From: Dermabacter hominis NBRC 106157
GTDB lineage: Bacteria; Actinomycetota; Actinomycetes; Actinomycetales; Dermabacteraceae
Assembly (NCBI RefSeq): GCF_001570785.1
Contig: NZ_BCSI01000001.1
Coordinates: forward strand, 372,001-436,000
Direction: 5' to 3'
DNA length: 64,000 nt
In this document: positions 33,427 to 36,900 of the stretch, one piece after another
How the letters are laid out: each line of letters opens with the position of its first letter
How positions within the stretch are numbered: the stretch's first letter is position 1
The notes under the pieces: generated by a model
Database searches by the model: none
What the model was told of the DNA's origin: nothing
The model's input: the letters and a program-made list of their open reading frames with translations, nothing else
Translations under genes and position numbers: made by a program

Positions 33427-35519
33427 GCACTGCGGAGATGAGAGGTGCCGAGCGCATCCTCGAGGGGCTCGACCCCGAGCAACGCCAGGTCGCCCAGTCC
33501 GTCGGCGCGCCACTGTGTGTTCTCGCGGGCGCCGGCACGGGCAAAACACGGGCGATCACCCACCGCATCGCCTACGCGATTGCCAGTGGGGGCTACGCGC
33601 CCAACCACGTTCTCGCGCTGACGTACACCACCAAGGCGGCTGCCGAGATGCGTTCGCGTCTGCGTGACCTGGGTGTGCCGGCCGTCCAGGCCAGAACGTT
33701 CCACTCCGCGGCGCTCAGGCAGCTCACCTACTTTTGGCCGTCAACCGTCGGAGGCCCGGCCCCGGACCTCGTGGACCGAACCCTGCCGCTCGTAGGGCAG
33801 GCCATGAGCCGGCTGCACATGCGTGTGGATCCGGCGGCCCTTCGCGACATCTCCGCAGAGGTCGAATGGGCGAAATCCTCGATGATCGTTCCCGAGGAGT
33901 ACCCGCTCGCGGCGGCGCGTCTTTCTCGGGCGGGAGTTGCAGGTTTCGAGCCGCGCACTCTCGCGCGGATTATGACCCAGTACGAGGACCTGAAAACCGA
34001 GCTTCACCTCATTGACTTTGCCGATGTTCTTTTGCTGACGGCCACGATGATTCAGGAGCATCCGCAGATGGCGCACGCTGTGCGCTCCCAGTATCGCCAT
34101 TTCACCGTCGACGAGTATCAGGACATCTCCCCGCTGCAGTTCAGGCTTTTGCGTGCGTGGCTTGGCAACGCGAGCGACGTGTGCGTCGTGGGTGATGCCG
34201 CACAGACCATCTACTCGTACGCGGGGGCGGATTCGAGCTATCTCCTCGAATTCAGGAAGGAATTCCCGCGTGCGAACGTGATCCGGCTCGAGCGCAATTA
34301 CCGCTCGAGTCCGCAAATTGTCCAGGTCGCGAACGCTGTGCTCGCGCGGGCGCAAGAGGGCAGGGACTCGCACGTGGAGCTTCGGGCGCAGCGGTCCGAC
34401 GCCACCCGGCCCCTCGTCGTTGGCTACCCCGATGAAACGGTTGAGGCGCGTGAGGTTGCGCGCTCGATTGCCGAGCTTCTCGCGAAGGGCAGGAATGCGA
34501 GCGAGATTGCCATTCTCTTGCGCGTCAATGCTCACAGCGAGCGGTTTGAGGATGCTCTCGACCGCGAGGGGGTCGCGTATCAGGTGCGCGGTGGCCAGAA
34601 GTTCTTCGAGCGGCGCGAGGTGCACGAGGCGACGAGCGCTCTGCGGGCGGCGTTAGGCACGGGTGGAGGCAACGACCCGGATGTGGGGCGTGTCGTTCGC
34701 GATGTCCTTTCCTCGCGCGGATGGTCGCCGAAGGCTCCCGAATCTCGCGGGGCGATCTTTGAGCGGTGGGCTTCCCTCAATGCACTCGTGCAGGTGGCTG
34801 ACTCGATTGCCGAGCGTGCGGGAGCGACCCTGAGAGACGTCGTGGCTGAGCTCGAGGAGCGCCGCGAGGCGCAGAGCGCCCCCGTGAGCGAGGCCGTCAC
34901 GATTGCAACGGTGCACGCGGCAAAGGGCCTTGAGTGGCCAGTGGTGTTTGTCGTGGGAGCGAGTGAGGGGACGTTCCCCATCTCGTACGCGAAGACCGAC
35001 AAGGAAATCGAAGAAGAACGCCGGTTGTTCTACGTCGCTCTGACGCGTGCGCGCGACGTTCTTACCGTCACCTGGGCCGCGGCTCGGGCCGAAGGCGCGA
35101 AGGCTTCGAGGAAGGCCTCTCGGTTTATCGCGGGGGCTTTCGATTACCGCGACGAAGGCGCTGCTGAACGCGTGGCGATGAAGCGGACGACGGGTCGGCG
35201 CGGTGCACGTGTGTTCACGACGTGCAAGGGGTGCGGCGAGGCTCTCACAACGCCTGGTGAACAGAAAGTCGGGCGCCACGCGGAGTGCGGGGGAGAGGAG
35301 AGCGCGGAGCTCTTCGGGAGACTACGTGCGTGGCGTCGCGAGCGCGCGAGCGAGCTCAAGCGTCCTGCCTTTGCGGTGTTTACCGATTCAACTCTGCTCG
35401 CGATCGCGGATCGAGCGCCCGGAAGCCTCGAGGAGCTTCACCAGGTGCCCGGCGTGGGGCAGACGAAGCTCACCCAGTTCGGTGAGGAGGTTCTCGCGAT
35501 TATCAGCGAGGCTCGCTGA
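33423..35519 (+). CDS. uvrD2: SF1 DNA helicase UvrD2 with HRDC domain
   Basis: A 698-residue 3'-5' DNA helicase. Motifs: LAGAGTGKTRAITHRI, ALTYTTKAAAEM, TVDEYQDIS, VGDAAQTIYSYAGA, RLERNYRSS, IATVHAAKGLEWPVV and YVALTRARDVLTV. A metal-binding motif follows at about residue 605, then a C-terminal HRDC domain (FAVFTDSTLLAIADRAP...VPGVGQTKL). In mycobacterial UvrD2 the motif is CxxC-x14-CxxC; here it reads CKGC-x14-HAEC, with His at the third position. The start is GTG 33423, overlapping nudC, with AGGAAGGGAG upstream. It ends in front of a strong terminator. Confidence 0.93.
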   Translation: MSTAEMRGAERILEGLDPEQRQVAQSVGAPLCVLAGAGTGKTRAITHRIAYAIASGGYAPNHVLALTYTTKAAAEMRSRLRDLGVPAVQARTFHSAALRQLTYFWPSTVGGPAPDLVDRTLPLVGQAMSRLHMRVDPAALRDISAEVEWAKSSMIVPEEYPLAAARLSRAGVAGFEPRTLARIMTQYEDLKTELHLIDFADVLLLTATMIQEHPQMAHAVRSQYRHFTVDEYQDISPLQFRLLRAWLGNASDVCVVGDAAQTIYSYAGADSSYLLEFRKEFPRANVIRLERNYRSSPQIVQVANAVLARAQEGRDSHVELRAQRSDATRPLVVGYPDETVEAREVARSIAELLAKGRNASEIAILLRVNAHSERFEDALDREGVAYQVRGGQKFFERREVHEATSALRAALGTGGGNDPDVGRVVRDVLSSRGWSPKAPESRGAIFERWASLNALVQVADSIAERAGATLRDVVAELEERREAQSAPVSEAVTIATVHAAKGLEWPVVFVVGASEGTFPISYAKTDKEIEEERRLFYVALTRARDVLTVTWAAARAEGAKASRKASRFIAGAFDYRDEGAAERVAMKRTTGRRGARVFTTCKGCGEALTTPGEQKVGRHAECGGEESAELFGRLRAWRRERASELKRPAFAVFTDSTLLAIADRAPGSLEELHQVPGVGQTKLTQFGEEVLAIISEAR

Positions 35520-35527
35520 ACGCACGT

Positions 35528-35565
35528 AAAAAGAACCGGCGCCACCGTGGCGCCGGTTCTTTTTT
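35528..35565. terminator. Strong bidirectional rho-independent terminator
   Basis: AAAAAGAACCGGCGCCA and TGGCGCCGGTTCTTTTTT form a perfect 17-bp inverted repeat with loop CCG. T-runs are present in both directions, so it can end uvrD2 on the plus strand and the DUF5679 gene on the minus strand. Confidence 0.93.
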
Positions 35566-35603
35566 GTTCGCGGGGACGGCGAGCGAATGTGCGCTCGCGT
35601 CCC

Positions 35604-35765
35604 TCACTTACTGGGGAGGAAGCGGTTGAGCTTCGTGCCGCACTCGGGGCACTCAGCCTTTGCCGCGCGGCGGCCCTTGTCGTTGACCTGGATGGTGCCG
35701 GTTGCTTCGTGCTTCGCGCGGCACTTCACGCAGTAGAACTCGCCCGTGTAGGTTTCGTCAGCCAT
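35604..35765 (-). CDS. DUF5679 zinc-ribbon protein
   Basis: A 53-residue protein, MADETYTGEFYCVKCRAKHE..., with two CxxC knuckles (CVKC and CPEC), a small zinc ribbon. Such proteins stand next to uvrD2 in many actinobacteria; function is unknown and could involve nucleic-acid or protein binding. ATG 35765 has TAGGAG at good distance. A TATACA box at 35809-35814 on the minus strand lies about 45 bp upstream of the start codon. Confidence 0.85.
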   Translation of the reverse strand: MADETYTGEFYCVKCRAKHEATGTIQVNDKGRRAAKAECPECGTKLNRFLPSK

Positions 35766-35814: not shown

Positions 35815-36090
35815 GGCAATTTCGGGCCCTTGAGAACTCAACACTCCGCGTATGAGACAAAGAAACCGCACGTCAGAGCCCTTTTTGGGAATGGTTCGCA
35901 AGTACGGCTGGTTGAGGAGGGGGTCCGGAGACTTAGGTGCCGGCTGACTATAAAAAAGGGGCGACCCTCCGGGGGCGCTTAACGCACATGGGCCTTCCCC
36001 GCCCACGAGCGTTTGTTTTCCCGGAGGATCGCTTCTTCATCGAATGTAGTGCCAGGGGCGGGCTGGGTCAAAGCGGCGACGGGGAGTGAA

Positions 36091-36299
36091 TGTGGATAAC
36101 TTTGGCGTTGTTGTGGACACCCCTCGAACCTGTGTGGAAAGTGTGTGTGGATAATCGGGCATAGGAGCCTAACAGCGGTCTTGACCTGCGCTAATGCTGC
36201 CTCTTGGCGGTGAATATTAATTTCTTGCAACATGTGTTGCAGTCCTCAAAATTCGTCACGAAGGGGACGGAGGTCCCCGTGCTTCCTCGCTTATCCACA
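36091..36299. promoter_or_regulatory. Cluster of three perfect DnaA boxes in a 577-bp gene-free region
   Basis: The 9-base DnaA box TTATCCACA occurs perfectly at 36091-36099 (minus), 36146-36154 (minus) and 36291-36299 (plus). Two near matches, TGTGGACAC at 36112-36120 and TGTGGAAAG at 36133-36141, lie between. An AT-rich piece (TGAATATTAATTTCTT) is at 36211-36226, followed by an inverted repeat. The gap from 35766 to 36342 contains no convincing gene. Such an arrangement resembles part of an origin or a DnaA-titration or reactivation site. No dnaA, dnaN or rpmH gene is present, so it is probably not the chromosomal oriC. Confidence 0.65.
36226..36241. repeat. Perfect inverted repeat TGCAACA-tg-TGTTGCA
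   Basis: Two 7-base arms with a 2-base centre lie inside the DnaA-box region, directly after an AT-rich stretch. It looks like a dimeric protein-binding site; the protein is not known. A second small hairpin, GGGGAC-ggag-GTCCCC, follows at 36263-36278. Confidence 0.5.
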
Positions 36300-36342
36300 A
36301 CACCGGGGTGCTTGTCAAGCTCGCGCGCACTACACTCGCTGC

Positions 36343-36900
36343 GTGCCCCACCGACGACCCGAACGCGAACAACTCCACCTCGACGGCATCGGCGAGACCA
36401 TCGACGTGGTTCGCTCAGCTCGCCGTCACAAAACCATCACCGCACGTCGCAGGGGCGGAGTGTTTGAGTTGCTTGTGCCCGCGAGACTTTCGGCACGTGA
36501 GACGCGCAAGTGGGCGCGGGACATGTATGCGAAGTACGGCAACCGCGCTGAGCCGGCAGTTGCGAGTGACGAGGACCTCATGGCGCTCGCCCGTGCGTTG
36601 AGGGAGAAGTACCTGCCGAGCGTGCCAGAGCCTTCGAGTGTGCGTTGGGTGACCAACCAAGGCAAGCGCTGGGGATCATGCACGAGCGCGGATGGCTCAA
36701 TCCGTCTTTCACACGTCCTGCAGGGCATGCCGACGTACGTGATCGAGTCGGTCCTTGTGCACGAGCTCGCCCACCTTCTCGAACCGAACCACTCGCGGGC
36801 TTTCCGCACGCTCGAGGCTTCTTACCCCGAGCACGAGCGCGCGAATGGGTTCCTCGAGGGGTACGTATTTGCCCAGCGCTCAGCTCAGGATGAAGATTGA
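36343..36900 (+). CDS. YgjP-like (DUF45, WLM) zinc metallopeptidase
   Basis: A 185-residue M48-type metallopeptidase. It has WVTNQGKRWGSCTSADGSIR and the active site VLVHELAHLLEPNHSRAF (HExxH plus a third ligand), which define the YgjP/DUF45 family. Cellular targets are unknown; homologues are often linked to restriction or DNA-repair genes. The GTG at 36343 is my preferred start: TACACT sits six bases before it, giving a leaderless start, and upstream codons run into the DnaA-box region. A start upstream at 36232 would remain open but adds atypical sequence. Confidence 0.82.
   Translation: MPHRRPEREQLHLDGIGETIDVVRSARRHKTITARRRGGVFELLVPARLSARETRKWARDMYAKYGNRAEPAVASDEDLMALARALREKYLPSVPEPSSVRWVTNQGKRWGSCTSADGSIRLSHVLQGMPTYVIESVLVHELAHLLEPNHSRAFRTLEASYPEHERANGFLEGYVFAQRSAQDED

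Follow-up and report, generated by a model that had tools for sequence, protein, structure and literature searches.

The replication initiator DnaA also binds the bacterial chromosome away from oriC. In Escherichia coli, datA, DARS1 and DARS2 are non-coding clusters of DnaA boxes situated far from the origin; the core of a DARS is made of three boxes at fixed spacing, box I facing opposite to boxes II and III, while datA needs IHF, and the account of them mentions no control of a small RNA promoter (PMC5742627). Within E. coli oriC itself, arrays of low-affinity boxes are covered by DnaA oligomers that grow from high-affinity anchor boxes (PMC4285127). Clusters located outside the origin of Bacillus subtilis affect initiation, but they are read as sites of DnaA titration, and no RNA partner is described there (PMC5295017). 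A second type of function is found in the same organism at sda where, as at other DnaA-regulated promoters, a DnaA-binding region away from oriC acts on a promoter. The sda promoter is activated with a strong preference for ATP-DnaA, a precedent for an activated gene selective for that form (PMC4447404). Mycobacterial DnaA sites outside oriC were first identified in 2020, and cell length and susceptibility to isoniazid both change when one of them is mutated; five regions are bound, among them rpmH-dnaA, the region upstream of dnaB and a site adjoining a non-coding RNA, Rv3843c-RVnc0040, in Mycobacterium tuberculosis and M. smegmatis (PMC7738170). Northern blotting has confirmed an intergenic small RNA, MTS2975, between Rv3843c and Rv3844 (PMC3207917). 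MTS2975 and RVnc0040 are probably one and the same RNA. Little is known of how replication initiation is linked, in actinobacteria, to the rest of the cell. Work on DnaA-box clusters has reportedly been carried out in Streptomyces as well. A literature search, made mostly outside subscription journals, retrieved no paper on a DnaA-regulated small RNA of actinobacteria, or on the locus discussed here.

This locus belongs to a window of 64,000 nucleotides from Dermabacter hominis NBRC 106157. It fills a gene-free gap of 577 bp between a DUF5679 zinc-ribbon gene (35604..35765, minus strand) and a YgjP-like metallopeptidase gene (36343..36900, plus strand), both conserved neighbours; the closest named relative is Dermabacter indicis, with 85% identity in the YgjP-like protein. 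Four DnaA boxes are lined up on the minus strand. Box 1 (36091-36099) is an exact TTATCCACA; box 2 (GTGTCCACA, 36112-36120), a near match with two mismatches, lies 21 bp upstream of it and reads CTGTCCACA in most Brachybacterium-type relatives; box 3 (CTTTCCACA, 36133-36141) is a weak near match, with two mismatches as well; box 4 (36146-36154) is again an exact TTATCCACA. One more exact TTATCCACA stands on the plus strand at 36291-36299, beside the promoter of the YgjP-like gene, and no further exact copy was found elsewhere in the window. The three perfect and two near boxes announced by the first-pass annotation are all in place, and so are the AT-rich patch (36210-36226) and the inverted repeat (TGCAACA-TG-TGTTGCA, 36226..36241) that it had noticed in the gene-free region, the repeat having been found in the nearest relatives alone. 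The genome-wide count that it called for gives 21 exact copies of TTATCCACA in 2,155,270 bp, against 2 for a reversed control pattern, and if 21 sites are placed at random the probability that any three fall within 200 bp is about 2e-5. The genome has just two other clusters of boxes, in the dnaA/dnaN region (contig C7, 26580-28516) and near parB (contig C7, 35822-35988). What is present in the window is therefore an intergenic cluster away from dnaA and oriC, at a density beyond chance.

The same annotation had listed, among its options, a promoter controlled by DnaA. Promoter control is the part of that option that we keep; what had been missed is that the main promoter is that of an unannotated structured RNA encoded on the minus strand (36037-35953). 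This promoter, TTGACC-17-TACATT (TTGACC at 36071-36066, TACATT at 36048-36043, minus strand), is of the sigma-70 type, has box 1 located 19 nt upstream of its -35 element, and is the sole promoter-like site found between 35500 and 36400. It would start, at about 36037, a structured RNA of approximately 85 nt (35953..36037, minus strand) that ends at a U-run; the 3' end in the window, CCCCTTTTTT near 35953, is a clear run of the terminator type, whereas a poly-U tail (at least four T near the end) is clear in only 17 of 40 members of the family. The RNA is organized as an outer stem of about 12-13 bp, an internal loop with GGGAnAAC, and an inner hairpin with the loop GGGGAAGG. Its minimum free energy of folding is -48.9 kcal/mol (z -5.5), and covariance model R1 matches 35955-36044 with 73 bits. 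Searching the window and its relatives with the 4227 covariance models of Rfam, at gathering and at permissive thresholds, gave no match to the RNA. The notable permissive matches, to leader and terminator-like families, fell only on the strong bidirectional terminator AAAAAGAACCGGCGCC-acc-GTGGCGCCGGTTCTTTTTT that separates the convergent uvrD2-like and DUF5679 genes at 35529-35567. On the evidence of its sequence, the RNA is a previously undescribed gene, absent from Rfam. The unpaired segments GGGAnAAC and GGGGAAGG are likely contact sites for RNA or protein. A search for the complement of the conserved loop at dnaA gave nothing consistent; this check excluded only an obvious target at that gene, and no target of the RNA was found. 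Nor was the RNA found in viral contigs.

Conservation within the Dermabacteraceae ties the RNA, its promoter and the boxes together. The YgjP-like gene is present in 46 of 47 genomes, and the hairpin lies upstream of it in all 46 loci, in a degenerate form in one (G044). A TTGAC promoter is recognizable in 43 of these loci, all of which have DnaA boxes, with a strict TTRTCCACA upstream of the RNA promoter in 42/43; a locus devoid of a strict box occurs in G016. The place of the boxes relative to the core promoter is fixed: the core of the nearest one, TCCMCA, is found at -25/-26 from TTGAC in 43/43 loci, a second box at -46/-47 in 38/43, and the position of box 4 (-78 to -80) is filled in 35/43. 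The preferred variant is TTGTCCACA in high-GC Dermabacteraceae and TTATCCACA in Dermabacter. As for the structure, RNAalifold applied to a MAFFT alignment of 37 Dermabacteraceae sequences proposes 21 pairs, 14 of them with a compensatory change. Among 39 distinct aligned sequences, 98% of the cells at pair positions are paired, compensated changes on both sides are seen at 20 of 21 pairs, and double-changed cells number 172 against 47.5 after shuffling, with the reservation that alignment A4 was fitted to R1 so that pair counts lean towards the R1 structure, the MAFFT alignment being the independent check. Sliding the structure by 1-3 columns abolishes the pairing signal in these 39 sequences. 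G-U cells largely exceed A-C cells (70 versus 5, and 31 versus 7 in the MAFFT-only alignment), and the minus strand of the window is therefore the RNA strand. The locus thus carries an independent small RNA gene, with a promoter of its own and a conserved structure that covaries on one strand.

The RNA is not restricted to this family. A first broad covariance model, R2, had a poor structure of 10 pairs and was left out of the inference. R1 and a sequence pattern (the pattern matched in 38 genomes, against 1 match of its reversed control in 395 genomes) located the RNA beyond the Dermabacteraceae, in further families of the same class and generally with one copy in each genome, and model R3, built from 40 sequences, added families f27, f29, f32, f38, f44 and f45. 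R3 also found it in two genomes outside the class (f71), where the upstream DNA has a T-tract and box-like sites; in f8 and f57 a similar hairpin was recognized by inspection only. Taken together, at least 18 families within the class, and one beyond it, have a supported copy of the RNA. This RNA is usually present as a single copy and mostly syntenic: YgjP or NUDIX flanks one side, and DUF5679, encoded by the same strand, lies downstream, the order in part of f51 being NUDIX, RNA, YlbL. The TTGAC-type promoter accompanies it in distant loci too. R3 gave no convincing match in Streptomyces-like and Mycobacterium-like genomes (these labels are guesses) nor in several families of the same order. 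Small AT-rich genomes of family f44 (L228 in G516, L229 in G432) have the RNA and a TTGA-type promoter with no upstream DnaA boxes, and the job of the RNA is therefore not inherently tied to DnaA; G620 and G053 likewise have RNA and promoter without boxes.

In most families bearing the RNA, boxes of the DnaA type, in a single orientation, occupy the 150-200 bp that precede its promoter. At 19 loci outside the Dermabacteraceae, the density of TCCACA is 10.9/kb over the 300 bp upstream of the RNA and 0.35/kb in the remainder of these loci (31-fold), and that of the strict TTRTCCACA is 1.40 and 0.015/kb, respectively (95-fold). At 35 distant loci, 170 TCC(A/C)CA boxes face in the direction of the RNA and 7 in the opposite one, and distances of up to 60 bp between boxes are almost exclusively 11-12, 22-23, 33, 44-45 and 55-56 bp, that is, whole helical turns. 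Spacing is looser in Dermabacteraceae, where 21, 32, 53 and 63 bp dominate. A composite pattern of two phased boxes followed by TTGAC, scanned in 40 genomes with no match of the reversed control, recovers RNA loci, the upstream regions of rpmH (G419) and dnaB (G512), one tRNA-rich stretch and a site in G498; those at rpmH and dnaB parallel two of the regions bound by DnaA in mycobacteria (PMC7738170). The G498 site (L252, C1:4123214) has phased boxes and TTGAC but no RNA-like hairpin, and lies between genes resembling those of a solute transporter and of a secreted protein. Further upstream, a GGTCA-type element, TGACCTGC (GCAGGTCA on the RNA strand; 36182..36189, plus strand), is also conserved, and many distant loci have such an element about -120 to -150 from TTGAC. 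Several loci (L120, L122, L132, L135, L260 and others) have in addition a T-tract, after which comes a box-like (Y)CRTCCACA, at a fixed distance, about -205 from the RNA, which looks like a DNA-unwinding or architectural element.

This organization suggests that a regulatory RNA is under the direct control of the replication initiator. We consider it likely that the boxes serve as an upstream activating region for the conserved small RNA, driven by a predicted array of oligomerizing (ATP-)DnaA. DnaA, probably mainly as ATP-DnaA, would occupy the same-facing boxes spaced by whole helical turns, an arrangement suited to an oligomer of the E. coli oriC type, with a strong TTATCCACA or TTGTCCACA box as anchor. 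In the window, the head-to-tail oligomer would stop some 20 bp short of the -35 element, on its upstream side, with a similar placement at other loci, and would set transcription of the hairpin RNA from an ordinary sigma-A promoter. Given that the boxes precede the core promoter, activation is more probable than repression. The output of RNA would follow the level or the nucleotide state of DnaA, perhaps also the duplication of the gene by the fork, and the replication cycle would thereby be coupled to a trans-acting RNA. By contrast with sda, whose product is a protein, the Dermabacter locus has a conserved structured RNA and a long, phased array of a single orientation.

The main competing explanation, which we find unlikely, is that the site is chiefly a sink or a converter of DnaA, acting by hydrolysis as datA does or by reactivation as a DARS does, with an RNA promoter that is incidental or that supplies transcription through the site. 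Titration or reactivation had been put forward by the first-pass annotation; some five to eight boxes, together with the GGTCA motif and the T-tract box, do look like a large nucleoprotein assembly. The locus is also found at 0.63-0.72 of the distance from origin to terminus in ten closed genomes of the Dermabacter/Brachybacterium type, but at 0.46 in an eleventh (G042). Single orientation and helical phasing do not favour this role, nor does the constancy of the partner: from family to family, one promoter and one RNA are found at an unchanging distance from the array. Furthermore, DARS cores require an oppositely facing box (PMC5742627), whereas the array runs one way, and the opposite box at 36291 is 137 bp from its nearest member.

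A less probable alternative attributes the boxes to another regulator, recognizing YYRTCCMCAG. The dominant variant of the array is YCGTCCACAG, whereas boxes at oriC favour TTA, i.e. TTATCCACAG. Yet the preferences of the array, YYRTCC[A/C]CAG, overlap position by position those of the boxes that follow dnaA in these genomes, and YCG in place of TTA is what is expected if many boxes of the array are weaker and filled co-operatively. The exact TTATCCACA or TTGTCCACA occurring in nearly all Dermabacteraceae loci points to DnaA as well, TTGTCCACA being tabulated as a high-affinity DnaA box of M. tuberculosis and Streptomyces coelicolor (PMC4285127).

That the boxes chiefly control the YgjP-like gene, the target proposed initially, is very improbable. 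The mRNA of this gene is probably leaderless: a probable -10 element, TACACT (36331..36336, plus strand), six bases, and a GTG start codon placed at +1 (36343) follow one another at 36331-36345. Box 36291-36299, some 45-52 bp upstream of this likely start and kept in the three nearest Dermabacter-type genomes, may indeed touch the gene. The motif TANACT-N6-RTG was found in five genomes, and it recurs in the nearest relatives. In most relatives, however, neither box nor TANACT promoter was seen near the start codon; it is the RNA promoter that the boxes accompany, and f51 genomes keep RNA and boxes with no YgjP match in the locus. An accessory origin, to which boxes and AT-rich patch might have pointed, is rejected as scarcely credible, since cumulative GC skew does not turn within the window and dnaA-dnaN, with boxes of its own, lies elsewhere. 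Nor is this oriC, as had been surmised from the flanking genes: dnaA is on another contig, and on the closed 2.39-Mb chromosome of a relative (G041), 840 kb separate the locus from dnaA. The array therefore differs from those of E. coli oriC in belonging to no origin.

Control of a small RNA by DnaA, the reading that we favour, would provide a concrete and testable link in the form of a DnaA array and RNA module extending over many families, and it adds a structured RNA family that Rfam lacks. It may also explain why, in mycobacteria, DnaA binds beside an annotated non-coding RNA, which is an experimental parallel. Like Rv3843c-RVnc0040, the Dermabacter locus would be an actinobacterial region bound by DnaA outside oriC and adjoining such an RNA, but the gene neighbourhoods of the two differ and R3 lacks a convincing match in the Mycobacterium-like genomes searched; the mycobacterial site may be homologous or may have arisen independently. 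A broader proposal, which we entertain rather than favour, is that the small RNAs, as a family present throughout the phylum, may act as a global regulator timed directly by an array of oligomerizing ATP-DnaA at their promoter. They would form a replication checkpoint of actinobacteria that differs from RIDA, datA and DARS, and of which the mycobacterial site would be a relative or an analogue.

The parB-proximal cluster deserves a separate mention. Downstream of parB, the Dermabacter genome has a 2.1 kb stretch with no evident long genes (C7:34260-36390), where nine parS-type sites, TTTCACGTGAAA, are spread over 34686-35502. The DnaA boxes of this second cluster (35822-35988, two exact and two near) come after them, and the whole makes up a centromere-like region about 7 kb from dnaA.
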